From an uncultured Rhodospirillales bacterium (GTDB lineage: Bacteria > Pseudomonadota > Alphaproteobacteria > Azospirillales > Azospirillaceae): a stretch of 45,992 nt of DNA. Below are positions 20,992-43,702 of this stretch, in pieces (position 1 is the stretch's first letter; every line of letters starts with the position of its first letter). The stretch is from the NCBI GenBank assembly GCA_903927615.1, contig CAIYNU010000076.1, forward strand, positions 1 through 45,992, in the 5' to 3' direction. Both the position numbers and the translations under genes were made by a program. The notes under the pieces were generated by a model. The model searched no databases and was not told the DNA's origin. It saw only the letters and a list, made by a program, of their open reading frames with translations.

Positions 20992-21059
20992 GGCGCTCCT
21001 CCCTTTGCCCACCCTCGGCGTCACCCTCGGGAACGCGATGGTGACGCCGAGGGGTGGAC

Positions 21060-22011
21060 TTACGCCGTAAAATCCAGCCCCATTTCGCGATAACGCTCGG
21101 GATCGTCGGTCCAATCGCCGCGGACCTTGACGAACAGTTTCAGGTGCACCCGGCGTTCCAGCATCTCTTCCAGCTCGTGACGGCTGGCCTCCCCCAACTT
21201 ACGCAGGCGTTGGCCGCCCTTGCCGATCACGATGGCGCGCTGGCTGTCGCGCTCGACGAAGATCACCTGGGAGATTTTAACGCTGCCGTCGGCGAACTCT
21301 TCCCAGGTTTCGGTCTCCACCGTCGCCGAATAGGGCAACTCCTGATAGAGCTGGATAAACAGCTTCTCCCGGGTGATCTCGGCCGCCAGCAGGCGCATCG
21401 GCATGTCCGAAAGCTGGTCGGCGGGGGAAGTGCCACGGCCCCGGCGGCACCCGCGCCGCCAGCATCGCCCGCAGATCGGCCACCCCGTTGCCGGTCAGCG
21501 CCGAAATCATAAAGGTGTCGGTGAACAGGCCATCCTGGTTCAGCGCCGCCGCCAGCGCCAGCAAGCGGTCGCGCTTGATCAGGTCGATCTTGTTGAGCGC
21601 CAGAATCGCCTGGCGGTGTTCGGCGCCGAGTCGGGCCATCAGCCCCCGACTGTCGTCGTCCACCGTGCCGTGCGAGGCATCCACCAGCACCACGATCAGA
21701 TCGGCATCCCCGGCGCCCTGCCACGCTGCCGCAACCATGGCGCGTTCAAGACGAACCTTTGGCACAAAAATTCCCGGCGTATCGACGAAGATCAACTGAC
21801 TGGAACCGGCCTCGGCGATGCCCAGCACCCGGCGCCGGGTGGTCTGAACCTTGGGGCTGACGATGGACAACTTGCTGCCGACCAGGGTGTTCAGCAACGT
21901 CGACTTGCCGGCGTTGGGGGCGCCGACCAGGGCGACAAAGCCGCACCGTCGGCTTTCGCCATCGACGTCGGCGCCGGGCAGCAGGGTGTGGTCATCCGGC
22001 AAGGCGTTCAT
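21060..22011 (-). CDS. era: GTPase Era, frameshifted as written
   Basis: Essential 16S rRNA/30S maturation GTPase. The first 195 residues are a normal G domain: GAPNAGKSTLLN, SPKVQTTRRRV, VDTPG, NKIDL and SALTGNG. After PPGPWHFP the frame is lost; the KH domain continues in another frame from about 21435 to 21060 (MRLLAAEITREKLFIQLYQE, IVIGKGGQRLRKLG). A run of five G on the plus strand at 21423-21427 has one base too many; with four, the reading is PGPWHFPADQLSDMPMR, the normal family sequence, and the protein is 316 residues. Because era is essential this is more likely a sequencing or assembly error than a true mutation. ATG overlaps the rnc stop by four bases. Confidence 0.9.
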
Positions 22012-29626: not shown

Positions 29627-30022
29627 ATGGCCAATATCACGTTTAGCGGCCTGACGATGGGTAAAGACATCACGGTGTACGGAACGGCCGGCGATACCGG
29701 CACGCTGCTGGCCATCGCCAAGAAACATAGCATTCCGATCCCGTTCCAATGCCAGGACGGTGAGTGCGGCTCGTGCCTGGTCAAAGTGACCTATCTCGAC
29801 GACAAGGCGCCGCTCGCCATTGCCCTCTCGGAGAAGGAAAAGCTGACGCTCAGCGTCAATGGTAAGCTGAGCCGGGAGCGCCTGGAACAGGCCGAGGTCA
29901 ACGACCGGCCGCCGCCGTTCCGCCTGGCCTGCCAATACATCGTGCGTGACGAAAATATTCTGGTGGAGTTCACCGGAGAACCCGGCGTCGAAATCGATCT
30001 GCGCCGGCAAGCCAAAAAGTAA
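29627..30022 (+). CDS. FeSII (Shethna protein II)-like [2Fe-2S] ferredoxin
   Basis: 131 residues. A plant-type [2Fe-2S] fold: the cluster loop is FQCQDGECGSCLVKVTYLDD (Cys-x4-Cys-x2-Cys) and the fourth Cys is in FRLACQYIV. The ending DENILVEFTGEPG and the loop with QDGxCGSCLVK closely match, as I recall them, the Azotobacter FeSII protein that protects nitrogenase from oxygen by forming an inactive complex. ATG 29627 follows GGAGG by six bases. A sigma-54 promoter and a TGT-N10-ACA site upstream agree with a nif-linked role. Monocistronic: a perfect hairpin follows at 30069. Function is inferred from similarity and promoter type. Confidence 0.88.
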   Translation: MANITFSGLTMGKDITVYGTAGDTGTLLAIAKKHSIPIPFQCQDGECGSCLVKVTYLDDKAPLAIALSEKEKLTLSVNGKLSRERLEQAEVNDRPPPFRLACQYIVRDENILVEFTGEPGVEIDLRRQAKK

Positions 30023-30068
30023 CCGCACCCCCTTCAAAGTCCGGAGGCCGGGCCGAGCCATCCTTGCG

Positions 30069-30099
30069 CGCTGCCACCCCATCGGCTAGGGTGGCAGCG
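30069..30099 (+). terminator. 11-bp perfect hairpin after the FeSII-like gene
   Basis: CGCTGCCACCC at 30069-30079 pairs with 30089-30099 around a nine-base loop, 47 bases after the ferredoxin stop and followed by a short pyrimidine-rich stretch. Probable terminator of the ferredoxin transcript, 34 bases before the next start. Confidence 0.65.
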
Positions 30100-30132
30100 T
30101 CCGTTCTCCCCGCCTGCCCCCGGTCTCCCCCC

Positions 30133-30603
30133 ATGGCGTCCCATCGCCCCGTATATTCGGCGTTAGCCGCCGCCCTGATCGCCCTGCTGATGACGGGCCC
30201 GGCCGCCGCCCAAACGCCGCGCAGCCCGTCGGTATTCGACCCGTTGGCCACCCCCTTCACGGACAGTGAAGTCGGAGGCATCGGCTGTGCCGTGGCGACC
30301 ACCGCCGCCGGCATCGGCATCATCGCCGCCATGGGCGGCCCGGCTGCGATGGCCGCAGCATTGCAAAGCGTGCTGACGCCCCGCGCCGTACTGGAGGCGT
30401 CGGCAGCCACCGCCTTCGTCGCCTCCAGCGCCTGCTATGTGGGTCAGGCCATGGCGCCGGTGGTCATGCTCGGCTGGTTGTCCGTGCTCGACGCCCTCAG
30501 CGGCCCGATCGGACCCCTTCCGGCCAACCCCGGGGTCGGCGGTCGCAGAGCCGACCTTTCGGTTCCCCCTGCCGACGGCGGGCAGGGCAGCGCCGCCCCA
30601 TAG
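30133..30603 (+). CDS. Two-helix cysteine membrane protein, paralogue E
   Basis: 156 residues. Signal-like start (YSALAAALIALLMTGPAAAQ), then the module seen at 6792-9545 in diverged form: TDSEVGGIGCAVATTAAGIG, a Gly-Pro in the first helix (AAMGGPAAMAAAL), LTPRA at the turn and VASSACYVGQAMAPVVMLGW. It keeps both cysteines and the Pro after the second helix, but has lost the GPSE glutamate, and its tail lacks the xVAE ending. It is about 20 kb from the other four on the opposite strand, next to the FeSII-like gene. No good ribosome site precedes ATG 30133. Membership in the family is by eye. Confidence 0.65.
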   Translation: MASHRPVYSALAAALIALLMTGPAAAQTPRSPSVFDPLATPFTDSEVGGIGCAVATTAAGIGIIAAMGGPAAMAAALQSVLTPRAVLEASAATAFVASSACYVGQAMAPVVMLGWLSVLDALSGPIGPLPANPGVGGRRADLSVPPADGGQGSAAP

Positions 30604-30622
30604 ATCACAAAGAAAAAGAAGA

Positions 30623-30639
30623 GCGGGCAGGATGCCCGC
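30623..30639. repeat. REP-like palindrome GCGGGCA-GGA-TGCCCGC
   Basis: A perfect 7-bp stem with a 3-base loop followed by GCTCCCGGG. It has the form of the REP-type intergenic palindromes found in many Proteobacteria. It lies between the convergent genes ending at 30603 and 30713 and could act as a transcript end. Confidence 0.5.
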
Positions 30640-30712
30640 GCTCCCGGGACAGGACCTCGTCTTGCGCCGATGGAGCCCTGCCCCCTGCCCTGACCCGGCG
30701 TTCCCGATGCGC

Positions 30713-31129
30713 CTAGGGCGCCCGCGGCGGCAATGCAGCACCCCGGGCCGGCTCGCCGGCCCGCTCGGCACGGCCTTCCCCTTTTTGCGCTTTACGCGAC
30801 TCGGCCAACACGCCACCGCGTGCTGCCGCCCGCTGGCTCAATGTGGCCTTCATCTCGGTGCGAATCTGAACCCGCGCCTGTTCGGTGGTGGCGGCGCGCA
30901 TGGACTGACGATAGGCTTGGCGCTCGGCTTGGGTCATCAACTCCCGCGCCCGGAACACCGGCTGTTCAGCCGCCGGCCGAGCCGGGGCCACAACCGCCGG
31001 CGCGGGGGCCGCCTGCGCCGCCGCGGGGGCCCGGACCTGCTGAGCCGCGGCCTGTCCCGGAATCATCGCCGACGCCACGAGTGCCGTTCCCAGCATCATC
31101 GCGCCGTAAAACGTCTTCCACTGCTGCAT
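30713..31129 (-). CDS. Small secreted Ala/Arg-rich protein
   Basis: 138 residues. The signal peptide is clear (FYGAMMLGTALVASAMIPGQ with AAAQ cleavage). Then comes an Ala/Pro-rich linker and a helical, charged segment: ELMTQAERQAYRQSMRAATT followed by EQARVQIRTEMKA. This 'LMTxxERxAYxxxMRxAxT' segment is familiar from short periplasmic proteobacterial proteins of unknown function. The tail is very basic and low-complexity. ATG 31129 follows GGGAGAG by four bases; the longer open frame upstream is not supported. Divergent from pyrF, convergent with the two-helix gene. Confidence 0.7.
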   Translation of the reverse strand: MQQWKTFYGAMMLGTALVASAMIPGQAAAQQVRAPAAAQAAPAPAVVAPARPAAEQPVFRARELMTQAERQAYRQSMRAATTEQARVQIRTEMKATLSQRAAARGGVLAESRKAQKGEGRAERAGEPARGAALPPRAP

Positions 31130-31152
31130 GCTGCTCTCCCTCACCTGTTTCA

Positions 31153-31178
31153 ATCCTGAAGTACGATCCTGAAGTAAG
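31153..31178. repeat. Short tandem repeat, two 13-base units
   Basis: ATCCTGAAGTACG is followed directly by ATCCTGAAGTAAG (one unit each of 13 bases, 12 identical). It lies in the divergent region between the small secreted gene and pyrF and might be a pair of binding half-sites, or chance. Confidence 0.35.
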
Positions 31179-31425
31179 GCCTTAACGTACGGACCAGGCC
31201 TGCCGGCCCCCGAAACCACTGCCACGCCCGGTGGATCAGCGCCGGCGCCCAACGCCCACTTACTCTCTCCGGCTGGGAAGTCAAGGCTGGTTTCCGCCCC
31301 CCTGTCTCTCCGGGATTGCCGAAGGCCAGCCCCGCGGTGCTCGGCGCTTGCCGATGAGGCCGGTTTCTGGTTTTGATGACGCATACCCGTTTCCTGACGA
31401 ATGCCCCCGTGAGGAGGATGTCACC

Positions 31426-32169
31426 GTGAGTCACGCTGGTTCCTGCCTGTTCTGTGCCGTCGACACCACCGACCTGGCGGTAGCCCGGCGGCTGGCACGG
31501 CAACTGACCGGCGCCGTAGGCGGGCTCAAGCTCGGGCTGGAATTCTTCGTTGCCCATGGATCGGCCGGGGTGCGGACGGTGCTGGGCGAAACCGGACTGC
31601 CGCTGTTCCTCGACCTTAAGTTTCACGACATTCCCAACACCGCCGCGGGCGCCGTGCGGGCGGCGGTAGCCTTGGCTCCGACCTTCCTGACGGTCCATAT
31701 CAGCGGCGGCGCCGCGATGATGAAAGCGGCGGCCGAAACCGCCACCAGCGAGTCGGCCCGGTTGGGTGTGCGACGACCGCGCCTGCTCGGGGTCACGGTG
31801 CTGACCAGCCTGACCGACCGCGAGCTGTTCACGGTGGGTCAGGAAACGCCGGTCGCGGCCCAGGTGGCCCGATTGGCCGCGCTCGCCGAGGACGCCGGAC
31901 TCGACGGCGTGGTCTGCTCACCCCACGAAATCGCGCTGGTGCGCGACCAGACCCGGCCGGACTTCGTGATCATGGTCCCCGGCATCCGCCCGGCGGCCAG
32001 CCTGCATGGGGACCAGAAGCGGGTGATGACCCCGGCCCAGGCGCGCGCCGCCGGGGCCGATTATCTGGTGGTCGGCCGCCCGATCACCCAGGACAAAAAC
32101 CCCGCGGCCGCAGCGGCGCGTATCGCTGCGGAGCTGACGGAGGGGAATGCCGGCCCACCTCACGACTGA
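31426..32169 (+). CDS. pyrF: Orotidine 5'-phosphate decarboxylase
   Basis: 247 residues. Last step of UMP synthesis. The catalytic stretch LFLDLKFHDIPNTAAGAVRA carries the Asp-Lys-Asp network; other landmarks are LFCAVDTTDLAVARRLA, GLKLGLEFF, LGVTVLTSL, GVVCSPHE, MVPGIRPA and ADYLVVGRPITQDKNP. I take GTG 31426 as start: GAGGAGG stands eight bases upstream and the conserved domain begins ten residues later; the open frame upstream is not family-like. About 300 bases separate it from the divergent small secreted gene. Confidence 0.96.
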   Translation: MSHAGSCLFCAVDTTDLAVARRLARQLTGAVGGLKLGLEFFVAHGSAGVRTVLGETGLPLFLDLKFHDIPNTAAGAVRAAVALAPTFLTVHISGGAAMMKAAAETATSESARLGVRRPRLLGVTVLTSLTDRELFTVGQETPVAAQVARLAALAEDAGLDGVVCSPHEIALVRDQTRPDFVIMVPGIRPAASLHGDQKRVMTPAQARAAGADYLVVGRPITQDKNPAAAAARIAAELTEGNAGPPHD

Positions 32170-32265
32170 TCCATCAACGGAACCGTTGGCTCCTTCTCGA
32201 GACTCGCCGGTCCGCGGCTCGCGACCGCCACCGCGCAATCGGCGTCGGCGCCGCACAGGCGGGTT

Positions 32266-33501
32266 TTAGTGGATCGGGACCGGTTGTTGTTGGTGCAGCA
32301 GGTTTCCCAGCAATTCACCAAAGCCGGCCGGATAACCAACCACCGAGGTCGGCAACTTGCCGTCCGTCTTCTGGCCGAACGCCCGCACCGCTTCGGCCGA
32401 TGCCAGCGCCCCGATGGTCGGGGCCAAGGGAGCCAGCAGTTCGGCGATGGCTTTGTCTTGCTGGGCGACATACCGCCGGTTGATGGCGTCCTGGATTGGC
32501 TGATCGAAGGAAAAGGTGTCGGCCCAACCGAGAAAATCCAGGTCGATCCCGAACTTGGAAAACTCGCTGGCCGCACTTTTCCGGACCGCCTCAAGAATGG
32601 CGTTGGCCTGGGCGTTGTTGTCATCCAACGTGCGGGTCGTCATTTCACTACAGATCAGCGAGTTAACCAACTTTCGACCGACGTCATCCATCACATCGGC
32701 GACTTTGCGGCTGTAGAAAACCGAAGTGAAAATCACGTCCAGACTGGTCGGGTCCCCTTGTGGCGGAATCACACCGAAGTGGTACAGGTATTTCGCGGCA
32801 TTGTCTTCGGTGATCGAGACCCCGATGTTGATCCCTCCGGAAATATTCAGACCCTCCTTGCTCTGGCAGAAGAATCCTTCCTTGCGGACCGATGAGCCGC
32901 GATCACTCGCGTTGACCCATTCCCGGCTGTAGGTGGTCCGATCGACGATGATCAACCGCCCGGTCGACACATAAAAGTCCGGCATGCTGAACCACGCGGT
33001 ACCGCCCGATCCCGACAGCTTGGCGTGAGGAATCTGAAAACGCTTGAGCGGTACCCGATTGGCCGCCAGGAACGCTTCCGATTCAAACCGGGCCTGGCTG
33101 TCCTTGTTGCCCCCGGCATCGGGGATGAAGAACGCCGATTGGTTCGGCAGAATGGTGTAGACTTCCGTGCGATCGGCCTTGTCGGCAAACGCCCAGGCCC
33201 CCTGGGGCGCACCAAGCCCCGCCAGCAGCAGCAGGCCGAACGGCGCGCGGCCCTTGAGAACCCGGCACAGCGGTGCCCACCAGACCGCCAGCAGCGCGAC
33301 CAGCAGCAACCCCAGGGGCAACGCGCCGACATGGCTGAGGGACCGCAGCGACCACGCCGTCGTGACCGCCGCGCCATCGCTGTTGGCGAATTGGTTGCCG
33401 GCCACACTGGCCGAAACCAGCGTGGCCGCGGGATCCAGCAGGATCGCTTGCAGTCCGTAGCCGACCAGGGCGACCAGACTGAGAACAAGTCGGATTGGCA
33501 T
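32266..33501 (-). CDS. SPFH/Band 7-like membrane protein
   Basis: 411 residues. Three N-terminal hydrophobic segments (LVLSLVALVGYGLQAIL, LPLGLLLVALLAVWW and FGLLLLAGLGAPQGAWAF) precede a region that resembles the SPFH fold: ILPNQSAFFIPDAGG, RLIIVDRTTYSREWVN, GINIGVSITEDNAAKYLYHF and SRKVADVMDDVGRKLVNSLI. The C-terminal part is helical (TLDDNNAQANAILEAVRKSA). SPFH proteins form large membrane-attached oligomers. The ribosome site (GAGG) is eight bases upstream of the ATG. Monocistronic. The match to SPFH is by motif pattern, so moderate certainty; other short-chain scaffold families are possible. Confidence 0.65.
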   Translation of the reverse strand: MPIRLVLSLVALVGYGLQAILLDPAATLVSASVAGNQFANSDGAAVTTAWSLRSLSHVGALPLGLLLVALLAVWWAPLCRVLKGRAPFGLLLLAGLGAPQGAWAFADKADRTEVYTILPNQSAFFIPDAGGNKDSQARFESEAFLAANRVPLKRFQIPHAKLSGSGGTAWFSMPDFYVSTGRLIIVDRTTYSREWVNASDRGSSVRKEGFFCQSKEGLNISGGINIGVSITEDNAAKYLYHFGVIPPQGDPTSLDVIFTSVFYSRKVADVMDDVGRKLVNSLICSEMTTRTLDDNNAQANAILEAVRKSAASEFSKFGIDLDFLGWADTFSFDQPIQDAINRRYVAQQDKAIAELLAPLAPTIGALASAEAVRAFGQKTDGKLPTSVVGYPAGFGELLGNLLHQQQPVPIH

Positions 33502-33565
33502 TGGGAAACCTCATCGCTCAAAAAAACCGGCGTGACCACCGGCTTTGCTTGTTGAGACGACCATC

Positions 33566-33646
33566 ATGTCCTCAAATTCCCCTCAGAACCAGAATGAAGA
33601 GGCGATTCAGATCGTGCGGCGGGCCTACGCCATGGGTGCCGTTTGA
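33566..33646 (+). CDS. Possible 26-residue peptide
   Basis: A short frame MSSNSPQNQNEEAIQIVRRA followed by six more residues has normal-looking codons and a polar, helix-forming composition, but no strong ribosome site. It lies alone in the 270-base gap between the SPFH gene and the reductase gene. It could also be the remnant of the start of a lost gene. Confidence 0.2.
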   Translation: MSSNSPQNQNEEAIQIVRRAYAMGAV

Positions 33647-33770
33647 CCGGTCCGTCAGATGATGGCATTCTTCAAATGAGGGCCGGACTCATCATTGATA
33701 ACCCATCGGGCAGGCAGCCTGATCCTGCTCGGCGACGTTTTCCGCGCAACCTCACGAACCGGGGACCAAG

Positions 33771-34748
33771 ATGCGGGCGGCAACATCGGTTCTGGTGACC
33801 GGCACCAGCGGCTTTCTGGGGGGGGCGCTGGGGCGTCACCTTCGCGATCTCGGCTACCGGGTGACCGGTGTCAGTCGGCGACCGGCCCGCCCCGGTGCCG
33901 TGGATCATCAGGTGCGGCATGATCTGCTGATGCCCCTTCCCCACGATCTGGCCCGCCATGACGTCGTGGTCCATGCGGCGGCGCTGGCCTCGCCCTGGGC
34001 CAGTCCGGCGGCCTATCAGGGCCATATTGTTCAGGCCACCCGCCATGTCCTGGACTATGCCGAACGGACCGACGCCGAGCGTTTCATTCTGATCTCGACC
34101 ACCGCGGTCTTCTATATCCTGGGCGATCAATTCGGTATTACCGAAGACACGCCCTTCCCGGCCACCGCGGTCAACGGCTACGCCGCCGCCAAGCGGGAGG
34201 CCGAAACCCTGGTTTCACGACGACGGCCAGAAAGTCTGATCATCCGGCCCCGGGCCATTTACGGTCCCGGCGATACCGTGCTGTTCCCGCGCGTGCTCCG
34301 GGCCGCCCGCAAGGGTCTGCTGCCGCGGATCGTACGACCGGACGGCAGGGCCGCGATGGCTGATCTGGTGTATATCGGAAATCTCGTCCATGCCATCGAG
34401 GCCGCCCTCCGCCTTGGCCTCACCGGCACCGTCAACGTCACCGATGCCTGTCCCCAGGACACCTACGCCTTGCTTTGCGACGTCCTCGCCCGGTTGGGCT
34501 ACCGCCAACCCCGGTTTGTGCTGTCCCTGGACGCCGCCATGCGCCTGGCCACGGCGGCGGAATGGCTGTCGGCCCATTGTTTCGGCTGGCGCGAGCCGCC
34601 GCTCACCCGCTTCGGGGTCTCGGCGGTCGCGCACGCCAAAACCTTCGACGTCCGCCGCATGCTGGGGTCCCTCGGGCCGCCGCCCTTTACACCGGACCAG
34701 GGCATCGCCGCCTTCGTCGCCTGGCAGCGGGCGGGTGCGGGGCCATGA
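33771..34748 (+). CDS. NAD(P)-dependent epimerase/3-beta-HSD-like reductase
   Basis: 325 residues, extended short-chain dehydrogenase. Rossmann motif VLVTGTSGFLGGALGRHL, then VVHAAALASPW, the active-site Ser/Thr region ILISTTAVFY, YAAAKREAET (Tyr-x3-Lys) and IIRPRAIYGPGDTV. The closest family pattern I see is the 3-beta-hydroxysteroid dehydrogenase/OleD/NSDHL-like group that reduces a 3-keto acid or a ketone. First gene of a four-gene plus-strand operon with overlapping stops and starts (ATGA with the next gene). Substrate unknown. Confidence 0.85.
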   Translation: MRAATSVLVTGTSGFLGGALGRHLRDLGYRVTGVSRRPARPGAVDHQVRHDLLMPLPHDLARHDVVVHAAALASPWASPAAYQGHIVQATRHVLDYAERTDAERFILISTTAVFYILGDQFGITEDTPFPATAVNGYAAAKREAETLVSRRRPESLIIRPRAIYGPGDTVLFPRVLRAARKGLLPRIVRPDGRAAMADLVYIGNLVHAIEAALRLGLTGTVNVTDACPQDTYALLCDVLARLGYRQPRFVLSLDAAMRLATAAEWLSAHCFGWREPPLTRFGVSAVAHAKTFDVRRMLGSLGPPPFTPDQGIAAFVAWQRAGAGP

Positions 34749-35896
34749 CCCCCGTCACGCTGCTGTTCCTGGCCCTGGCCGCGACCCTGGCCGGGCTGAC
34801 TCTGGCCCGCGTCGGCCTTGCCGCCGCGGAAATCCGCCGGCAGTCCCGAACCCGCCCCGCCCCGGTGGCCGAAAACGACATCACCGTCCTGCAACCCATT
34901 CTCGGCGGCGATCCGGCCCTGGCCCAGTGCCTGGAACACACGCTGCGCGAGGCAAGCCGGGCGCGCGTCATCTGGCTGCTGGACGACGATGACCCGCCGG
35001 GACAGCAGGCCGCCCGACAGGCGCTGGCCGCCAGCGGTCGCGACGATGTCATCCTGCTGTTCACGCCGCCGCCGCCGGCCGATCGCAATCCCAAAATCTT
35101 CAAACTGATCCAGGGGCTGGATCAGGTGAAAACGCCGTTCGTCGCCATTCTGGACGACGACACGATGGTGCCGGCCGGGACCCTGGGACGGGCGGCCGCC
35201 CTGGCGGAACCGGGCGCCCTGGTGACCGGACTGCCGGCCTATCGGGCCAGCGGCACCCTGTGGTCGCGGCTGGTCAGTGGCTTCGTCAACGCCCATTCGA
35301 TCCTGACCTATCTGCCGGCCGCCCGGCTGGGACTGACCCGGACCATCAACGGCATGTTTTCGCTGATGCGCACCGACGACCTGCACGCCCGCGGCGGCTT
35401 CGTCGCCATCGCCGACGAGATCACCGACGATTACGCCCTGGCGCGGCTGTTCCTGTCCCGGTCCGGCCGGGTGATTCAAACCTGTCTCGGCCTGACCATC
35501 GTCACCACCGTCGACGGGCCCGGCCATTACGTTGCCCTGATGCGCCGATGGCTGGTGTTCGCCCAATTGTATGTGCGTGAAAACCTGTCGCCGGGGCTCA
35601 TCGCCGTCGTCTTGCTGCCGGGCCTGCTGCCCCTGCCGCTGCTGCTGACCGGTCTGGCCGCCGGAGCCGGTTGGACCGCCGCCGCGCTCGCTGTGCTGAC
35701 CGGTAAGGCGCTGTTGGTCCGATGGCTGGCCAGACGGCTGGGCCATCCCCCCGGACCGTTTTCCGACCTGATCTTCGAGGTCGCGGCCGAACTGCTGTTG
35801 CCGCTGCATGTGCTGGCCGCGCTGCTGAACCGTCGCCACATCCGCTGGCGCAAGCGGCGGTTCGTGCTCCGGGGCCGAAGGATCGTCGATGGCTGA
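34745..35896 (+). CDS. GT21-like (ceramide glucosyltransferase-type) glycosyltransferase
   Basis: 383 residues with one N-terminal membrane segment and two to three C-terminal ones. The catalytic domain resembles family GT21: ENDITVLQPILGGDPALAQC, PKIFKLIQGLDQVKTPFVAI, the metal-binding LDDDTMVP, then DEITDDYALARL and the RRW motif (MRRWLVFAQLYVRENLSP). GT21 enzymes transfer a sugar from a nucleotide donor to a lipid such as ceramide. The gene overlaps the reductase stop by four bases. It overlaps the next gene by eight. Lipid acceptor inferred from family only. Confidence 0.82.
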   Translation: MTPVTLLFLALAATLAGLTLARVGLAAAEIRRQSRTRPAPVAENDITVLQPILGGDPALAQCLEHTLREASRARVIWLLDDDDPPGQQAARQALAASGRDDVILLFTPPPPADRNPKIFKLIQGLDQVKTPFVAILDDDTMVPAGTLGRAAALAEPGALVTGLPAYRASGTLWSRLVSGFVNAHSILTYLPAARLGLTRTINGMFSLMRTDDLHARGGFVAIADEITDDYALARLFLSRSGRVIQTCLGLTIVTTVDGPGHYVALMRRWLVFAQLYVRENLSPGLIAVVLLPGLLPLPLLLTGLAAGAGWTAAALAVLTGKALLVRWLARRLGHPPGPFSDLIFEVAAELLLPLHVLAALLNRRHIRWRKRRFVLRGRRIVDG

Positions 35897-36527
35897 GCGG
35901 TATCCCGAACGGCTGGCCGGCCTTGATCCCGCCGGCTTTCTGCTGCCGCCGGCCAGACGACGGCTATGCCTGCTCACCGGTCAGAGCAGCTTCACCTCCA
36001 GCGCCCTGCCCGCCGACAAGCTCCGCTTCCTGAACGCGGTCGCGCCCGCCGACGTCCTGGTGACGCCGGCCGGCTTTCCCTGGCACGCCGCCCTGACCGG
36101 GGCGTTTGCCGCTCCCGGGTTGTTGCCGGCCTGTCTGCGCAACGCCCGGCAATGGCGATGGGCACGCCGACACGAGGGATTCCGCGGAGCCCTGTCCGCC
36201 ATCCTCGAGCTGGCGCTGAAGCGAACCGAAGACCGGTTGCTGGTGGTCACCGGCAGTTGCGGCGTCGAGTTGCTGGCCCAGGCGCTCAGCCGACTGCCGA
36301 CCGGCGGCCCCGCGCTGTGGGCCGCGGTGCTCGGCCCGGCCGGCCGGGTGCCGTCCGCGCGGCATGTGGCCAGACTGCTGGTGATCCAGGGGCGGCGGGA
36401 TGTCTGGAGCCGGATGTTGTGGCAGGGACCGGTGCATCGGCAGCCCGATTGCGGTCATCTGGAGTATTACCGCGACGATGACACCATCGCCGCGGCGTCG
36501 GCGTTCTTTGCCGGGTCGGCGCCATGA
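35889..36527 (+). CDS. Alpha/beta-hydrolase-like protein of unknown activity
   Basis: 212 residues, cytoplasmic, no signal peptide. Features point to an alpha/beta-hydrolase-like fold: LLVVTGSCGVELLAQALSRL has a nucleophile-elbow shape with Ser-Cys between the glycines, LLVIQGRRDVWSRM supplies an acidic residue at the usual place, and DCGHLEYYRDDD a histidine near the end. If so the nucleophile would be Cys rather than Ser. The size is short for the fold. It starts inside the end of the GT21-like gene and overlaps the next gene by four bases, so it belongs to the same pathway. No firm family. Confidence 0.65.
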   Translation: MAERYPERLAGLDPAGFLLPPARRRLCLLTGQSSFTSSALPADKLRFLNAVAPADVLVTPAGFPWHAALTGAFAAPGLLPACLRNARQWRWARRHEGFRGALSAILELALKRTEDRLLVVTGSCGVELLAQALSRLPTGGPALWAAVLGPAGRVPSARHVARLLVIQGRRDVWSRMLWQGPVHRQPDCGHLEYYRDDDTIAAASAFFAGSAP

Positions 36528-37774
36528 TCCCCAAGCGCATCAGCTTTGTCGCGCCCCCTTTTGCCGGTCATCTCAATCCGCTGCTGGAACTGGCGACCGC
36601 GGCGGCCGATGCCGGCTATCAGGTTACGGTGGTCACCGGCACCGCCAGGTTGGCTGCCGTGGCCACCCTGGGGTTGCGCGGGGTGGCGCTGCCGTGCCTG
36701 GCCGGCCAGCCGATGGAGCGCATCGCCGACACCGAGCGGCGGGTCGGCAGCCATCCCGGGCGTCTCCTGGACCAATTGCGCCGCAGTCTGACGCTGATGG
36801 CCACCGCCCGCGACGAGTTGAGCGCCCTGTGGCATACCGAACCGCCCGATCTGGTGGTCGCGGACTCGGTCGCCGCCGCCGCCGGCCTGGCTGCCCATCG
36901 CCTCGGCTTGCCGTGGATCACCACCATCGCCACCCCGTTCGCCCTGGAATGCCGGCGCGGCGTACCGTCGTATCTGGGCGGCTGGAGCGAAGGCACCACC
37001 CTTTTCCACCGGCTGCGCGATGCGGCCGGGCGGGCGGTGGTCCGGGGCGTCAAGCGGAGCCTGGCTATGGCCGTCCGGCGGCAACTGGCCACGCTGGAGA
37101 CCGGCGTTTATCGCGCCGATGGGTCCGAAGCCTGCTATTCCCCGACCGCGATTCTCGGCTTCGGCCTGCACGAATTGGAATTCCAGCGCGACTGGCCCGC
37201 AGTTTTCCGGATGATCGGCCCCTGCTTCCGCAATCCCGAACCGATCGGGATGCCCTCGTTGCCGCCGGGCGGTCCCCGGGTGCTGGTGACCTTGGGAACC
37301 CACCTGCCGTGGGCCAAGGCCACACTCGCCGACGATCTCGCCTGGCTGGCCGCCCGCCGGCCCAACCTCGTCTTGGTCGGCAGCCTGGGAATGGCCGCAG
37401 CGGGCACCGACGGCCGCCCGCTGGCCGCCAACGCCGTACTGTTTCCGTTCCTGCCCTATGCGGCCGGCTTGCCCTGGTTCGATGCGGTCATCCATCATGG
37501 CGGCGCCGGCATCACCTACGCCGCCATCGCCGCCGGCAAACCGGCGGTGGTGGTACCGCACGACTATGACCAGTTCGACTACGCCGCCCGGGTGGTCGCC
37601 AAGGGGGCCGGCCTGCGGGTCGCCCGGTTGCGCAGCCAGGCGACGCTGACCGCGCTCGACCGTGTGCTGGCGCCGGCAGCCTTGCCGGCCCTTGCCGGCT
37701 TGGCCGCGGCGGCGGCACGTTACCGGCCAGGCGCGGCTTTTCTGGCCGAGGTGGCCCAGCTCGTCGGTTCCTGA
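36524..37774 (+). CDS. UGT-type (GT1) glycosyltransferase
   Basis: 416 residues, GT-B fold. N-terminal FVAPPFAGHLNPLLELATAA is the usual acceptor-side motif (PFxGHxxP). The C-terminal donor-binding signature is IHHGGAGITYAAIAAGKPAV with VVPHDYDQFDYAARV (the HGG...PxxxDQ pattern). These enzymes glycosylate hydrophobic small molecules or lipids. Start overlaps the hydrolase-like gene (ATGA). Its 3' end overlaps the convergent ligase gene by 55 bases. Second glycosyltransferase of the locus. Confidence 0.88.
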   Translation: MIPKRISFVAPPFAGHLNPLLELATAAADAGYQVTVVTGTARLAAVATLGLRGVALPCLAGQPMERIADTERRVGSHPGRLLDQLRRSLTLMATARDELSALWHTEPPDLVVADSVAAAAGLAAHRLGLPWITTIATPFALECRRGVPSYLGGWSEGTTLFHRLRDAAGRAVVRGVKRSLAMAVRRQLATLETGVYRADGSEACYSPTAILGFGLHELEFQRDWPAVFRMIGPCFRNPEPIGMPSLPPGGPRVLVTLGTHLPWAKATLADDLAWLAARRPNLVLVGSLGMAAAGTDGRPLAANAVLFPFLPYAAGLPWFDAVIHHGGAGITYAAIAAGKPAVVVPHDYDQFDYAARVVAKGAGLRVARLRSQATLTALDRVLAPAALPALAGLAAAAARYRPGAAFLAEVAQLVGS

Positions 37775-39015
37775 AGGCGCCGCCGGAGACCGTCGCCGTC
37801 CGGTTGGATCGGGCCGACCACCCGGCGAAACTTCCCGGCCAAGTCGCCCAACACCAGCGTCCGCACCGCCACCCCCCGAACGAGTCCCGGGCCATCCCGG
37901 GCTGCCAGCGCGCCCAGACTTTCGGCGGCCCGGCGGCCGGCGGCGGCCGGCAGCCCGGCCGGCACCTCCAGAGCCAGCCCGTCAACGGCCTCCTGAACCA
38001 CCCGAAACGGCGCTCCGCCCAGCTCGGGTGCCACCGCGGCATGAACCTCGCCGGGAAACAGCAGACTCTGGGGGGGCAGCACCAGCACATCGGCCAGCCG
38101 CCCCTCGATCCCCGCCACCGCGGGCAACGCCGAGCCACAGGGACAAGCCCGGGGGTCACAGTCCGGACGCTCCACGGCGAGATCGTCGGTTCGGTAGCGG
38201 ACGATGCGTTGGGGCCCATCCCGAACCAGATCGGTGACCACCGGCACGAACCGGCCGGACACCCCGCTCAGGCGGACCGCGTCCACCCGCACCACATCGG
38301 TGTTCAAATGCAACCGGCCGTGCCGGCACGATGCGCCGAAGAATCCTTCGGCAGCCTGATAGACCTGACGCACCGGGGCCCCACCCAGGCCGTCCCGCAA
38401 AACCGCTTCGTCTTCCGGCCACAACGGTTCGCCCCCGACGATCACCAGCCGTGGCGCCCAGGGCGCCTGACGAAACGCCTGACTTTCGACGATTCGCCTC
38501 AAGGCAAACGGCGGTCCGACCAGAATCTGAGGCCGCAGCGCCCCCAGCCCGGCCGCCACCGCCTCGGCCCCGTCGGCCAAACCGAAGAAGACCGTGCGGC
38601 CTTTGGTCTGGTGATAAAGCGGGTTGTTGTGTCGCAGCAGCACGGCGGCCCGGGTTCCGATCATCAGCTCGGGCGGCACCACCCGGGCGAAGAACGTGCC
38701 CAACCAGCGGGATCGATCCCGGGCCGAGGTGATGAAGACCCCCGGTTCGCCCAGCGTGCCGGTCGACAGGCCGAAGCTGAACTGCGGATGGCCGGTCGCC
38801 GTACCCGCGGCCTCGCCCATGGCCAAATGGCGGGCGGCCGGCAGATCAAGGCCCAGATCATTCCAGGCCGCGAAGTTAGCACGGTACTCGTCCCGCGTCA
38901 CCACCGGACCAGACGCCAGCTCGGGCCGGCGCCGTTCGGCCGCCGCCAGCAGGGACGGCGCGCCCCCCAACACCGCGGCGCGCATCAGGGCGGCCAGGGC
39001 GTCAAGCCGACTCAT
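37720..39015 (-). CDS. Adenylate-forming ligase (PaaK/LuxE/F390 synthetase-like)
   Basis: 431 residues. The P-loop-like adenylation motif is FSFGLSTGTLGEPGVFITSA, followed by LLRHNNPLYHQ, LVIVGGEPLWPED, VYQAAEGFFGASC and VRYRTDDLAVERP (the YxTxD adenylate motif), with CPCGSALPAVAGIEGRLADV. This order is typical of PaaK/F390-synthetase-like ligases that activate an acid as acyl-AMP. It probably activates a fatty or aryl acid for the KAS III. The ATG at 39015 is preceded by GGGAA and overlaps the MBL gene by 14 bases. Ends convergently inside the UGT gene. Confidence 0.82.
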   Translation of the reverse strand: MSRLDALAALMRAAVLGGAPSLLAAAERRRPELASGPVVTRDEYRANFAAWNDLGLDLPAARHLAMGEAAGTATGHPQFSFGLSTGTLGEPGVFITSARDRSRWLGTFFARVVPPELMIGTRAAVLLRHNNPLYHQTKGRTVFFGLADGAEAVAAGLGALRPQILVGPPFALRRIVESQAFRQAPWAPRLVIVGGEPLWPEDEAVLRDGLGGAPVRQVYQAAEGFFGASCRHGRLHLNTDVVRVDAVRLSGVSGRFVPVVTDLVRDGPQRIVRYRTDDLAVERPDCDPRACPCGSALPAVAGIEGRLADVLVLPPQSLLFPGEVHAAVAPELGGAPFRVVQEAVDGLALEVPAGLPAAAGRRAAESLGALAARDGPGLVRGVAVRTLVLGDLAGKFRRVVGPIQPDGDGLRRRLQEPTSWATSARKAAPGR

Positions 39016-39853
39016 GGTGCAATTCCCGCTGCAAGGACTGGATCGCCTCTTGGCAATGCGAGGGCACAATAGCGATGTCGGGGCGGCACCGGGCCAGATC
39101 GTGCAGCCCCCGGAGCGTGCTGCAATAGGCGCGGTAATCGTCCAGAAAGGCCCGTGCCGGGAGCAACGGCTCCAGCAGGTCGCGGTAACAGCAGGACAGC
39201 CAGGCCGCATCGGCGGCCAGCAGCACCGTCCGGCCCTGCTCGGTTTCCAGTGTCAGCCCCAGATGGCCGGCGGCATGGCCGGGCAGCGGCACCGCGATCA
39301 GACTCCCGTCGCCGAACAGGTCGGCGCCCCGATCGAACATGCCCCATCCCGGCCCCGGCGACACCGCCCGGCAGTCTTCGATCGGGCGCAACCGGGCCGC
39401 CAGATCATCGGGAAACAGGTCGCGGATCAGCCCCAACCGGCCGCACCGGCGAAAGCCGGTGGTCGCCAGAGCCGTGAACGCGGCGCGGGACAGGTAGAGT
39501 TCGGCACCGGGAAAGTCGGTCAGACCGCCCGCGTGATCGGGATGCAGGTGCGACAGCACGATCGCGCGCACCTGCTCCGCCGGAACGCCGGCCGCCGCCA
39601 ATTGATGGACACAGGCTTCGCCCGGCGCCAGCCGGTAGGGCAACAGCCGGCGATACCAGCGCGCCACCGGATCGGCCGACCGTTCCAAGGCCGCACCATA
39701 GCCGGTATCGAACAGCACCGTGCCCCGGCTGGGATGGGTCATGCGTCCGACCAGGGCCGGAAAGGTCACGCGCCCCGGTTCCAACCGGCCGGTCACCATG
39801 CACGCGGGATGACGGCAACGGCCGACGGTCAGGAGTTCGAGCCGCACCCGCAT
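39002..39853 (-). CDS. Metallo-beta-lactamase-fold hydrolase
   Basis: 283 residues. The metal-binding signature is VLSHLHPDHAGGL (HxHxDH), with a following His in PLPGHAAGHLGL, Asp in LLAADAAWLS and His in IVPSHCQE. The layout is like lactonase/AttM-type MBL proteins, acting on thioesters or lactones. It sits between the KAS III and ligase genes (3-base gap on one side, 14-base overlap on the other), so it probably hydrolyses an intermediate, or proof-reads. No signal peptide. Confidence 0.88.
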   Translation of the reverse strand: MRVRLELLTVGRCRHPACMVTGRLEPGRVTFPALVGRMTHPSRGTVLFDTGYGAALERSADPVARWYRRLLPYRLAPGEACVHQLAAAGVPAEQVRAIVLSHLHPDHAGGLTDFPGAELYLSRAAFTALATTGFRRCGRLGLIRDLFPDDLAARLRPIEDCRAVSPGPGWGMFDRGADLFGDGSLIAVPLPGHAAGHLGLTLETEQGRTVLLAADAAWLSCCYRDLLEPLLPARAFLDDYRAYCSTLRGLHDLARCRPDIAIVPSHCQEAIQSLQRELHHESA

Positions 39854-39856
39854 GGC

Positions 39857-40837
39857 TCAGTACCGGAACAGCATGGCGCCCATGCCGAAGCCGGCGGCGG
39901 TGCCGACCATCAGCGCCAGATCACCGCGGCGCAGATGGCCTTCGGTCACCGCGACATGCAGCGCAGTCGGCAACGAAGCCGTCACCTGATTGCCGTGATC
40001 GGCGAGGATGTCAATCATCACCGGCCCCTGCGGCCCCAGCCAGCGCCTGAGAAACTTTAACCCCAGGCGACTGGCCTGATGCGGAATGACGCAGGCGAGC
40101 TCCGACCGGGCAACCCCGGCTTCCGCCAGCACCTTGTCGATGAAACCCGGCAGACGATCCATGGCCAAACGCGCCAGCCCGCGGCCATCCATCCGAAACA
40201 GGTAATCACGCGGCGACGGCGGCGGCCGGCGCAGATTCCAGCGCGAGCCGCCGGCCCGGATCTCGCACAACGAAACGCCCTCGGGGTAAGTTTCCAGACG
40301 GTGCGCCAGGATGCCGGCCTTCCCTTCGGCGGGAATCACGATCGCCGCGGCGGCGCCGTCCCCGAACAACGGAGCGGTCGCGTCGTCGCTCTCGTCAAGA
40401 CCAAGGGTCGCCTGTTCCACCGCCACCACGCCGACACACCGCGACAGACCCAAGGTCACAGCCGCCGCCGCCCCTTCGAGCGCCTGCAAGAACCCCAGGC
40501 AGGAGGCATTGACGTCGTAGGTCATCAGCCCCGGAGTCAAGTCAAGCCGCTTGGCGACCAAAGCCGCGGTGGTCGGGATCGGTTGTTCGGGCATGATCGA
40601 CGTCACCACCAGCCGATCAATATGACCAAGCCGATCACCGCCGGCCGCGGCCAGCGCCGCCGCCGCCATCATTGACGCGCTTTCCTCCGCCCCAGCCCGC
40701 CGCCGCGCCGTCACGCCGCTCCGCCGCGCGGTGGTTCCCGACGGCCAACCCTGGGCCGCATCCAGGACTGAGGCCAGCAACACCGACTCCGGACGGTAAA
40801 TCCCAGTGGCGGCAATAGACACGGGAAGAAACGGCAC
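39857..40837 (-). CDS. 3-oxoacyl-ACP synthase III-like condensing enzyme
   Basis: 326 residues, FabH fold. Triad: Cys in DVNASCLGFLQALEG, His in VIPHQASRLGLKFL and Asn in DHGNQVTASLPTAL, all in the expected order. Start is GTG 40837 after AGGAG. The order of its active-site residues is intact, so it should condense an acyl-CoA or acyl-AMP-derived acyl group with another chain. Context (ligase, MBL, reductase, glycosyltransferases) suggests a specialised lipid product rather than housekeeping fatty-acid initiation. About 270 bases to the next gene upstream. Confidence 0.9.
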   Translation of the reverse strand: MPFLPVSIAATGIYRPESVLLASVLDAAQGWPSGTTARRSGVTARRRAGAEESASMMAAAALAAAGGDRLGHIDRLVVTSIMPEQPIPTTAALVAKRLDLTPGLMTYDVNASCLGFLQALEGAAAAVTLGLSRCVGVVAVEQATLGLDESDDATAPLFGDGAAAAIVIPAEGKAGILAHRLETYPEGVSLCEIRAGGSRWNLRRPPPSPRDYLFRMDGRGLARLAMDRLPGFIDKVLAEAGVARSELACVIPHQASRLGLKFLRRWLGPQGPVMIDILADHGNQVTASLPTALHVAVTEGHLRRGDLALMVGTAAGFGMGAMLFRY

Positions 40838-41109
40838 AGCGGCTCCTGTCGGTGAACACTTTGAAACTCATCCGCCATTGCCCGCTCCCTGTCAATCGTG
40901 ACCATTGCCGGGCACACGCCCTGATTGGAGTTGTTCGTAGCAACCGCTGCTGCCAAACTCAGCCTGTTCGGACACCATGCCTTGACGTTCAATCAATCCA
41001 TTGAATAGGTCATGGGCTGGTCGGATTGGCGGCGATGGCACCAAGCCATCGCACGCAAATGCCGCGTCAAGCGCAAGATTGCCACAATAAGAAAAGTGAC
41101 ACTGTAGAA

Positions 41110-43218
41110 CTACCGAGAACCGCCATCAACCGAGGCGCTTTTCTGGATTTCCCGAACACCAGCTTTATCAACCTTGAATACATGGCTAATCAGCCAATCG
41201 CGAAGGAAAGACATTAAATCGGTGGTAAGTGTAGCCGTTCCAGCTTGAAGTTGTTTCTCAAATTGCTCGACCTTCCCAACCAAATCAGAGTGCGTCTTTA
41301 AATGTTGCGGAAGGGTAGACAGACCACCTTTCCGCCATATTTCTTCTTCCCGCGCAAAATGATCTCGCGTATATTGGACGAGATTCCGAAGAACCTGAAG
41401 GACAAGGTTCCGGCCACGCCCCTCCATCATTGCCAAGTTCAACTCATTCACATACTGGACAAGCACCTTGTGATCCGCATCGATGATCGGATGCCCCGTC
41501 AACCAATTTGCCCCCCACTCCAGGCTCGCGCCACCACTCTGGAGACGGACCAGAAAGTTGTCCGCAACAGCCCTCATAGTTTCTGCCTTTTTGCTTAGTT
41601 CCTGTGCCGATGAAAATACTTCATAAGCAGCCTGAGTATTGGCCTCAGCCCCCTTTCTTACGCCCATAATATTGCACGCGACGTCTGTGGTGCCGGTGTA
41701 GGCCGCTTGAATATTCCTAGTGATTTCTTGGGTGGCGGCGCCTTGCTCCTCAGCGGCCGAGGCGATGGCCGCTGATACTTCGTCAAGCTCGTTAATCGTC
41801 TTAGCTATACCGCTAATCGCATCCACGGCACGAATAGTTTGGTCCTGAACCGCAGAAATCTGCCCCGCAATCTCTTCGGTAGCTTTGGCGGTCTGAGTCG
41901 CCAGGGTCTTGACCTCATTGGCGACCACGGCAAACCCCTTTCCCGCGTCGCCCGCTCGGGCTGCTTCGATCGTGGCATTGAGCGCCAAGAGATTGGTTTG
42001 CGCCGCAATGCCATTGATGAGGTTGACGATCACACCGATCTTACTGGCAGCTTCTGACAGACCACGGACGAGCTGGTCTGTTGTTTGCGCCTGGCCAGCG
42101 GCATTCTGCGCGATCCCACTCGCACGGCATATTTGGGAAGATATCTCTCGGCTCGAGGCGGCGAGTTCTTCCGAAGCGGCTGCGACCGTCTGGACATTCG
42201 TTGCGGCTAACTCGCTGGCCGTCGCTACGTTGGTGGCTTGCTGACGGGTCAGGTCGGATACTTCCGTCATTGCCTTAGCGTTATTTTCAAGATTTACTGA
42301 AGCAGAAATGACGGTCCTAACCACTTCGACAATCTGATCATTGAACTCTAAAACAAGTGCCGCTTGTGCCTTGGAACCACGATCCTTCTCCATCTGCTCG
42401 TTGTATTGTTGTTGAGAAAGCTCTTTTACCTTTACCATTCCATCGCGAAACACCTCCAAGGCTCTCGACATTTCACCCACTTCATCTTTTTGCTCCGTGA
42501 ACGCAATGGGCACACTGAGGTTGCCAGACGCCATACTGGTCATCTCGCCAGTCAAACGTCTTAAGGACCAAATGAGTTGGAGTGCCACGATAGCGGCAAT
42601 GCCTATAATGATAACCGCAATAAGAAAAGCCACGAGACTGAATCGTATGGCCTCGTTTTGGAAAGTTGCGGCAACATCATCCAGGTAGACGCCGGTTCCG
42701 ATGATCCATCCCCAAGGCGCAAAGCCCTTGACATAGGAAATCTTCGGCACCGGTTTGTCAAAACCGGGCTTCGGCCACAAATACTGGTAAAAATCTCCGC
42801 CCCGATCTTGTATAATTTTGACCATATCACGAAATAAAAACGCGCCATCAGGCGTCTTTATATCGGCGATATTTTTGCCATTTAACTCTGGCTTAATCGG
42901 ATGCATTAGCATCGTTGGGGTCATATCATTGACCCAGAAGTAGTCGTTGCTCCCATAACGCATCGCGCGGATATCCGCGAGTGCGGCCTGCTGGGCAGCG
43001 TCCTCTGTTAGGCGACCTGACCGAACCTCGCTTTCGTATCGCGCCACAAGAGAGTATGCGCTCTCGATAAGTTGCTGAACCTTGACCTTACGGCCATCAA
43101 GAAGATCCGCATAAATAGAGTTAAGGGCAAGCCAAAGCGTTATTATTAAGCCCGCCACCATCAAACAAATAACTGCAACCAACTTACTCGCAATCCTGAT
43201 ATTTTGAAACCAGACCAT
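41110..43218 (-). CDS. Chemoreceptor with Cache, HAMP and hemerythrin domain
   Basis: 702 residues. TM1 ([20 protein letters not shown]), periplasmic single Cache domain (residues 35-190; [36 protein letters not shown]), TM2 ([18 protein letters not shown]), HAMP (residues 215-265), methyl-accepting signalling domain with the tip [20 protein letters not shown] and [15 protein letters not shown], then a C-terminal hemerythrin domain (residues 565-690) with [29 protein letters not shown] and HVFKVDK, all metal ligands in place. So it should sense a ligand outside and oxygen or redox inside. Starts ATG 43218 after GGGAGGAAA. Lower GC than the neighbours. Confidence 0.93.
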
Positions 43219-43702
43219 CGTTTCCTCCCAAACGGTATGCCGCCAGCGGGCTCTTTTCCTCATCCGGCCATCGTCGCTATGAGAGTAGCCAAGATCGACT
43301 TGAAGAGAAAGCGATTACCTCATTGAGACCGCCGCCCTCGGGTACAACCCCATTCATCCTCTTGATCTTGGGGCTGATATGTGAGTCCACGGCGTTGCGG
43401 TAGCCTTGACGGAGACGATGCCGGACGTTTTCTAACGGAGTGATGGGGCGTGGGCGGCAATGGAGTCGCATCTTCCGAAGAATCGACCTGGGGCTCATCG
43501 TGTTGACGAGCGTCGGAAAGGGATACTCTCATTGCTGGCCGAAGGCCAATGGATCACGTCTCACCCCTGCTGACCCTGCTGGACGGTGGATGTCGCCGAT
43601 ATTGGCCAAAAAGTTTTGGTCAGACAACCGGGTTAGTGTTGTGAACGAGACGCTTCGTTCCTGACGATCGTGTCGAGGACACAACACAACCCATTGAACA
43701 GG
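43219..43702. other. Non-coding gap with nested inverted repeats
   Basis: 484 bases between two minus-strand genes. No convincing gene. Near the stop of the GGDEF-EAL gene, GTGTTGTG at 43636-43643 can pair with CACAACAC at 43680-43687, and inside it GAACGA at 43643-43648 pairs with TCGTTC at 43655-43660; a possible terminator. The rest should contain the chemoreceptor promoter, but I cannot place it. Confidence 0.45.

Follow-up and report, generated by a model that had tools for sequence, protein, structure and literature searches.

A conserved ketosynthase-reductase-hydrolase-ligase core joined to a glycosyltransferase arm: a candidate glycolipid-type pathway in an uncultured Rhodospirillales bacterium

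Introduction

The Ole pathway clusters the genes of a ketosynthase (OleA), a reductase (OleD), an adenylate-forming enzyme (OleC) and a hydrolase (OleB). OleA uses a glutamate residue, Glu117, which extends into the partner subunit, as the base for unactivated chains. The structure 3S23 is that of OleA (PMC5724707), and an oleACD cluster with a glycosyltransferase has been reported (PMC7064751). I analysed a stretch of 45,992 nucleotides, hereafter the window, from an uncultured Rhodospirillales bacterium (GenBank assembly GCA_903927615.1, contig CAIYNU010000076.1). Positions 33771-40837 (coordinates of this locus are those of the whole window) contain seven open reading frames (ORFs) encoding a comparable set of enzyme classes. 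It was found that four of the seven genes form a core which recurs in many bacteria, including Escherichia coli. Together, the seven genes encode an apparently undescribed assembly line in which, probably, fatty chains are joined and the resulting product is reduced and decorated with two sugars. No description of the core, of the E. coli operon or of a product was found in the literature searched, judged by titles and the openings of abstracts; it was accessible in part, most subscription journals lying outside the reach of the search.

Two other groups of ketosynthases are important for the comparison. A glutamate residue equivalent to OleA Glu117 is described as essential in PpyS, and MxnB and CorB carry a valine residue at that position (Kresovic et al., PMC4578411). 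According to the same paper, the substrate of MxnB and CorB may need no base, its alpha-carbon lying between two carbonyls, and both enzymes fall within the FabH clade of the published tree (PMC4578411). MxnB is stated to bind and condense two long chains (PMC5724707).

Results and Discussion

Two arms encoding seven enzymes meet tail to tail

The plus strand encodes an OleD-like reductase of the extended short-chain dehydrogenase/reductase (SDR) type (33771-34748, 325 residues), a glycosyltransferase of family 21 (GT21) resembling ceramide glucosyltransferase and HpnI (34745-35896, 383 residues), a small alpha/beta-hydrolase named p3 (35889-36527, 212 residues) and a family 1 glycosyltransferase of the UGT/MGT type, hereafter UGT (36524-37774, 416 residues). 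These ORFs overlap by 4, 8 and 4 nucleotides, respectively. On the minus strand, a beta-ketoacyl-acyl carrier protein synthase III (KAS III) with a GTG start codon (39857-40837, 326 residues) is followed, after a gap of 3 nucleotides, by a hydrolase of the metallo-beta-lactamase (MBL) fold (39002-39853, 283 residues), whose ORF overlaps by 14 nucleotides with that of a PaaK-like, F390-synthetase-related adenylate-forming ligase (37720-39015, 431 residues). The UGT and ligase ORFs overlap tail to tail by 55 nucleotides (37720-37774). An earlier note, made from the letters alone, had described two tight convergent operons with neighbours overlapping or at most three bases apart, and all seven ORFs indeed lie at the positions it gave. 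Its enzyme class calls agree with Pfam and NCBIfam matches for six of the proteins and, for the seventh (p3), with the alpha/beta-hydrolase fold of the predicted structure. The locus coincides with the G+C peak of the window (34001-40000, 0.704 and 0.710, compared with 0.556-0.688 in the other 4-kb steps).

The core is conserved and the two arms occur together

Are the two arms conserved together in other genomes, as the earlier note supposed? Genome contigs were scanned with a four-member ligase alignment; 98 matches were confirmed, and the loci analysed here are the best 80 of these 98. Their ORFs were scored with profiles built from the window protein and up to four relatives, with 60 bits taken as presence. 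L015 and L059 come from the same organism and L062 and L063 are near copies; all are counted among the 80.

KAS III accompanies the ligase in 77 of the 80 loci, the OleD-like reductase in 76 and the MBL hydrolase in 72, and the complete core of four genes was found in 69. The MBL hydrolase, which had been taken for an addition to an Ole-type set, is instead a core member. The eleven loci with an incomplete core are L057, L071, L077, L098 and seven actinobacterial loci from Herbiconiux and its kin (L091, L094, L105, L113, L120, L126 and L133). As for the sugar arm, GT21 is present in 16 loci and UGT in 14. All 16 GT21 loci have KAS III, the MBL hydrolase and the ligase, so that the supposition holds; the reductase is also present in 15 of them, and the contig of the sixteenth (L057) breaks off within GT21. 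Bradyrhizobium sp. U87765 SZCCT0048 and a Micropruina isolate are among the carriers of the sugar arm. Ligase and UGT are found together in 14 loci. Ten of these are convergent, with a 3' overlap of 20-152 nucleotides in nine and a gap of 24 nucleotides in one, and the other four (L067, L079, L085 and L107) have the two genes on one strand. Counted over the GT21 loci, the arms share a strand in four of 16 (three acidobacterial loci and one of Rubellimicrobium). The convergent layout was found again in Pseudomonadota, Actinomycetota and Bacteroidota. The same set thus exists both on one strand and in convergent form, which argues that both arms belong to one pathway.

The ligase and MBL profiles were also applied to 12 control loci around other OleD-like genes. 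They matched in one (L160), which is itself a core cluster. The four core proteins have correlated pairwise distances (r 0.82-0.87, with L059 and L063 left out and not corrected for kinship). The scan was anchored on the ligase, so ligase-free clusters were missed; one such cluster, G210, carries KAS III, MBL, OleD-like reductase, GT21, hydrolase and UGT genes in this order on one strand.

Among 58 relative genomes, a ligase match at E 0.001 was found in four and is strong only in G025 (probably Nitrospirillum viridazoti CBAmc; E 5e-123). The weak matches are partial and belong to G035 (best 1.6e-9) and to two of four genomes of the same genus (8.4e-7 and 3.9e-5); the other two of the four have no ligase match at E 0.001. 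N. viridazoti, also represented by L015 (5891-14272) and L059, has all seven genes, arranged convergently as in the window. However, its KAS III has lost three residues, the catalytic Asn among them, and its GT21 gene is split by an ORF which I take to resemble a transposase. This copy looks decayed. Because of the sparse matches among relatives and the decayed-looking copy, the locus is regarded as patchy and probably acquired. Weak p3 matches occur in G188 and G394, with no other cluster gene in their 18-kb stretches.

KAS III groups with MxnB and CorB

The window KAS III has the triad C113, H253 and N283 and matches the Pfam families ACP_syn_III and ACP_syn_III_C (72 bits for the latter). 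Its nearest solved chains by sequence are MxnB (275 bits) and CorB (274 bits), followed by FabH-type chains at 246 bits and below, and the OleA entry 3s21/3s23 scores 117 bits. The predicted model (predicted local distance difference test score, pLDDT, 92.7) has MxnB as its closest fold (Z 45.4, 1.6 A over 320 residues).

Two phylogenetic trees were made, both with a midpoint root only. The references were five OleA, four FabH (one from the source genome), MxnB and CorB, with no PqsD, PpyS or DarB. In the 68-row tree, which includes 52 rows labelled class A or B (L071 was dropped, its aligned part being too short), the cluster KAS IIIs fall together with MxnB and CorB (100/94), and both FabH (100/100) and OleA (100/99) are separate from them. 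The 51-row tree, thinned by 21 rows and supplemented with four from E. coli, Burkholderia stagnalis, Paracoccus and Ketogulonicigenium, gave the same MxnB/CorB grouping (99/94). The OleA rows and the cluster KAS III rows lie on opposite sides of a 100/99 split in these trees. The source genome (G000, 4.57 Mb) has two matches to PF08541, the KAS III C-terminal domain; one is the window KAS III and the other, on contig C29, groups with FabH. Housekeeping FabH is thus excluded by the two trees and by the separate FabH of the source genome, in line with the earlier supposition that this KAS III is not a housekeeping enzyme. The sugar-arm KAS III rows sit in three places of the 68-row tree. Thus, the sugar arm may have moved, or been gained or lost, more than once.

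The position of OleA Glu117 was compared. It is Ile, Met or Leu in all 76 cluster KAS III rows (Ile87 in the window protein), Leu in E. coli and B. stagnalis, Ile in Paracoccus and Ketogulonicigenium, Val in MxnB and CorB, and Phe in the four FabH rows. A glutamate residue is present in the five OleA rows and in all five Herbiconiux-type rows. L059 stands wrongly among the class B rows of this site table, which leaves the totals unaffected. The window KAS III therefore shares with MxnB and CorB the tree group, the Cys-His-Asn triad and the missing glutamate base. Since the base is absent, it should use an activated second substrate, following the logic of MxnB and CorB. On the other hand, MxnB and CorB make alpha-pyrones in polyketide synthase (PKS) pathways, while the window enzyme is flanked by a reductase, a ligase and an MBL hydrolase.

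A core cluster was also seen in a metagenome-assembled genome (MAG) labelled Sandaracinus (Myxococcota; L070, 19-5450), whose KAS III is the nearest to MxnB and CorB in both trees.

The ligase, the MBL hydrolase and the reductase

The best NCBIfam family of the window ligase is TIGR02304, 'F390 synthetase-related', with 158.1 bits, below the cut-off of 251.9; DVU_1553 is the only other model matched. The same family is the best for all five ligases tested, scoring 755 bits for E. coli and 350 for L091, above the cut-off, and 165 for L058 and 167 for L090, below it. Since the E. coli core ligase reaches 755 bits, the core cluster is, judged by these scores, a native setting of TIGR02304, a family whose name carries no tested function. 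The earlier note mentioned similar neighbourhoods annotated 'F390 synthetase-related'; this phrase was in no paper of the literature searched, with the reach mentioned above. Among solved structures, the ligase is nearest to AjiA1 and to PaaK-like ligases, phenylacetate-CoA ligases included. Nine residues (S84, G86, G89, E223, D278, C291, C293, G305 and R306) are kept in all 84 aligned rows.

The MBL hydrolase matches Lactamase_B (58 bits) and, under the cut-off of 390, the acylhomoserine lactonase model AttM (86 bits); its nearest solved chains are also acylhomoserine lactonases. It has the complete HxHxDH-H-D-H metal set. H102, H104, D106, H107, H193 and D215 are present in all 76 readable rows, and, again among readable rows, H266 in 19 of 19 of class A but in only 22 of 26 of class B. 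The reductase matches the Pfam family Epimerase (93 bits) and keeps S109, Y137 and K141 in 80 of 80 aligned rows.

The cluster is Ole-like in logic

The earlier note had drawn a parallel to OleABCD. The parallel stands only as logic, with the reductase as the one OleD-like part, its scores far below the OleD cut-off. However, the ketosynthase is not OleA, and the window has a PaaK-like ligase and an MBL-fold hydrolase instead of OleC and OleB, as well as two added glycosyltransferases and the small alpha/beta-hydrolase. The model NF045785, which describes beta-lactone synthetase, gives 1002 bits for a control OleC from L154 and is not among the matches of the window ligase. With two control OleC proteins, no relative was found in the window at E 1e-10 or above 100 bits in the 80 loci. 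With two control OleB proteins, no window ORF was found at E 1e-10, and one of the 80 loci exceeded 60 bits, outside its cluster; this OleC/OleB search had no positive control of its own. PF00561 is matched by the two control OleB proteins (108 and 115 bits) and by none of the seven window proteins at E 0.001.

Five of the actinobacterial loci (L091, L094, L113, L120 and L126; three from Herbiconiux, one from another member of Microbacteriaceae and one from Psychromicrobium) combine an F390-like ligase and an OleD-like reductase with a Glu-bearing, OleA-type KAS III. Neither an MBL hydrolase nor an OleC-like ORF was detected in them. Since these loci pair the ligase family with an OleA-type ketosynthase, they link it to two-chain condensation and suggest that it can serve where OleC serves. 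They are the best support for an Ole-like logic in the window cluster. By the tests made, the window cluster is Ole-like in logic and not a member of the Ole group.

The sugar arm

The GT21 protein matches PF13506 (Glyco_transf_21) with 104.6 bits against a cut-off of 21.7, and HpnI with 91 bits, under the cut-off of 310. At E 0.01, its matches among solved structures are ceramide glucosyltransferases only, as expected from the earlier suggestion that one of the two transferases is of the ceramide type. The motif DDDT is present in 19 of 19 rows. At DD and RW, 18 rows are readable, and all 18 have both motifs. The first position of the GT21 motif (Q/R)xxRW is occupied by Leu in the window protein and by either Leu or Ile in each of the 18 rows. 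Ceramide glucosyltransferase and HpnI share the family and the acidic motifs with the window protein, but none of the seven window proteins is, by Pfam, an enzyme of ceramide or hopanoid backbone synthesis.

For p3, no Pfam or NCBIfam match was found at E 0.001 and no solved structure below E 0.18 by sequence. Its AlphaFold2 model (mean pLDDT 93.2) has an alpha/beta-hydrolase fold, with tied matches to the thioesterase TesA (Z 11.0, 159 residues, 3.5 A), Bacillus subtilis lipase A (10.5) and MenH (10.4). The putative triad S123, D171 and H190 is invariant in 11 of 11 aligned rows. RhlA and OleB are not among the 50 fold matches listed, which excludes neither, and RhlA and RhlB sequences were not directly compared.

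The UGT matches EryCIII-like_C (52 bits, cut-off 31.7), UDPGT and, under its cut-off of 260, MGT (66 bits). The HHGG motif is present in 17 of 17 rows. Its nearest solved chains are CalG1, CalG3 and SsfS6; sterol glucosyltransferases and two chains named 'Rhamnosyltransferase' (9ke1 and 9ke2) are also among the matches.

Alternative tails and an operon in E. coli

Loci without glycosyltransferases often have other genes next to the core. ATP-grasp genes were found in 41 of the 80 loci, Rieske oxygenase genes in 28 and GNAT-like genes (by a Pfam hint below the cut-off) in 34, for example in Roseobacter-type bacteria, Halomonas and Bradyrhizobium. At least one of the three is present in 42 loci and in none of the 16 GT21 loci; 22 of the other 64 loci have none. 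Examples of this tail are L090 (11073-13249) and L093 (11110-12231), and the best NCBIfam model for the ATP-grasp protein is PRK06849, below its cut-off. A MAG labelled Akkermansia muciniphila (L074; the label was not checked) also has the core with ATP-grasp and GNAT-like genes.

A third tail, first met on plasmid records, consists of PAP2, fatty-acid hydroxylase (FA_hydroxylase) and desaturase (FA_desaturase) genes and follows the core in E. coli. In E. coli clone D i2, a seven-gene operon lies between narI and the tRNA-Tyr genes (L165, 3001-9882; record positions 1469592-1476473). It has the same four core genes as the window, but in the order KAS III, SDR, MBL and ligase on one strand and with the lipid-modifying tail in place of the glycosyltransferases. 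B. stagnalis has the core and the same PAP2, hydroxylase and desaturase genes, at 48, 42 and 41% identity to those of E. coli. No GT21, UGT, p3 or ATP-grasp-type tail was found in the E. coli and B. stagnalis stretches (L161, L164 and L165). In the loci examined, neither the PAP2-type nor the ATP-grasp-type tail was found together with the sugar arm.

The operon was matched in 672 of 5,426 complete E. coli genomes (about one in eight), in 671 of them over at least 80% of its length, and narI adjoins the operon KAS III in 671 of the 5,426. Nissle 1917 and ATCC 25922, which are among three matches listed, carry at least the narI-side KAS III. UTI89 has an IS4 element at the narI-side site.

Other features of the window

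A chemoreceptor with a C-terminal hemerythrin domain adjoins the cluster (41110-43263, minus strand). ARAGORN predicted a tRNA-Val(gac) gene inside the KAS III gene (40346-40426, minus strand), which is probably false; Rfam gave no match at 33000-41500. Farther away are a Ser/Thr kinase fused to an FGE-sulfatase domain (19315-21114, minus strand) and an HAD phosphatase fused to a UbiA prenyltransferase (10874-13423).

A proposed pathway and its rivals

The earlier note guessed at a glycosylated lipid. This guess is reasonable for the lipid character, in view of the ceramide glucosyltransferase matches of GT21 and the PAP2/hydroxylase/desaturase tail of E. coli, and the chemistry would be as follows. 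The gene set and its co-occurrence, the KAS III grouping, the motifs, the folds and the separate occurrence of the tails in the loci examined are observed; the reactions, their order and the product I infer. KAS III would load an acyl chain on Cys113 and condense it with a second thioester having an activated alpha-carbon (beta-ketoacyl, malonyl or alkylmalonyl), since the enzyme has no glutamate base such as serves OleA with unactivated chains. The OleD-like SDR would reduce the beta-keto group to an alcohol. In either order, the MBL hydrolase would cleave a thioester or lactone and the F390-like ligase, holding the position of OleC in Ole clusters, would adenylate the carboxylate. GT21 would glycosylate the lipid alcohol, an acyl group would be trimmed or moved by the small hydrolase, and UGT would add the second sugar. 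With somewhat less than even confidence, I favour the reading that the seven genes form one such pathway, making an aglycone, lipid or polyketide-like, which is hydroxylated, probably has two chains and is glycosylated twice.

Several observations weigh against this reading. Two-chain condensation is not proved, given that MxnB and CorB make alpha-pyrones in PKS pathways and that FabH comes next in the tree; in the fold search, FabH (Z 44.1) is just 1.3 below MxnB. The best NCBIfam models of the reductase are two OleD models at 103 and 100 bits, far under the cut-off of 580. At the presumed catalytic K395 of the ligase, ten of the 72 readable rows have a residue other than Lys, and 62 have Lys. 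In G210, no ligase lies within the 18.5 kb examined, so the ligase is not always local. A crude motif scan of window positions 30000-43500 found no carrier protein near the cluster, and the same scan of the 80 loci gave two unconvincing matches. The nearest solved relatives of UGT are antibiotic glycosyltransferases, which also fits a non-lipid aglycone.

What else may the locus make? One answer is a single-chain glycolipid of the rhamnolipid type, for which KAS III would join acyl and malonyl units, the SDR would give a beta-hydroxyacyl chain, the small hydrolase would be an RhlA-like acyltransferase and two sugars would be added. The missing OleA glutamate, FabH as the next group in the tree, the presence of an alpha/beta-hydrolase and the 'Rhamnosyltransferase' relatives of UGT are all compatible with it. 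However, the solved enzymes nearest to KAS III in both sequence and fold act on two chains, and the conserved ligase, MBL hydrolase and OleD-type reductase would be left unexplained, so I consider a single-chain product rather unlikely. The MxnB/CorB grouping may also mean that the ketosynthase builds an alpha-pyrone, a butenolide or a similar small signal or antibiotic to be glycosylated, and the resemblance of the MBL hydrolase to acylhomoserine lactonases and of UGT to CalG1 would suit such a molecule. On the other hand, 15 of the 16 GT21 loci include a reductase, which would take away the keto group on which pyrone closure depends, a lipid is suggested by GT21 and by the PAP2/hydroxylase/desaturase tail, and no PKS was found among the 19 window proteins scanned with Pfam, which cover part of the window. 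A small molecule of this kind is therefore judged unlikely.

PqsA, PqsD and PqsE of the Pseudomonas quinolone signal (PQS) route are of the same three enzyme classes as the ligase, KAS III and the MBL hydrolase. In a PQS-like route, the ligase would activate an aromatic acid, as its phenylacetate-CoA ligase relatives might suggest, KAS III would extend it like PqsD, and the MBL hydrolase would be a PqsE-like thioesterase. However, PqsD scores 145 bits against the window KAS III and MxnB 275, and the PQS route is not known to have a counterpart of the OleD-like reductase or GT21, which makes this route very improbable. An ordinary OleABCD olefin or oleACD beta-lactone cluster would account for the OleD models as best matches of the reductase and for the same broad enzyme classes, and the reported oleACD cluster with a glycosyltransferase also counts for it. 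It is, however, extremely unlikely: KAS III is without Glu117 and outside the OleA group, the ligase and MBL profiles matched nothing in 11 of the 12 loci around other OleD-like genes, and the OleC and OleB comparisons were negative but for the one OleB match outside its cluster. Membership in the Ole group is refuted by the missing Glu117 residue, the KAS III grouping and the ligase comparisons. Finally, the opposite strands, and nothing further, would speak for two unrelated operons that converge by chance. Such an accident is hardly credible, being refuted by the co-occurrence of the arms in all 16 GT21 loci and by the single-strand loci.

The proposed two-chain pathway may be part of a wider theme, to which I give limited weight. 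The four-enzyme core may be pan-bacterial and make two-tailed beta-hydroxy lipids resembling ceramides or mycolates, a bacterial mimic of sphingolipids, with interchangeable head-group modules for glycosylation, for ATP-grasp/Rieske/GNAT-like modification or for PAP2/hydroxylase/desaturase modification. The tailoring classes echo those of sphingolipids.

If the pathway holds, the F390-synthetase-related family would gain a function, as would a group of KAS III enzymes which is now annotated just as beta-ketoacyl-ACP synthase III. The swapping of tails on one core would provide related products of natural origin whose structures can be compared. Since the same core is present in E. coli, in which genes are readily deleted and lipids routinely analysed, an unassigned lipid-type pathway of a model organism would be directly testable.

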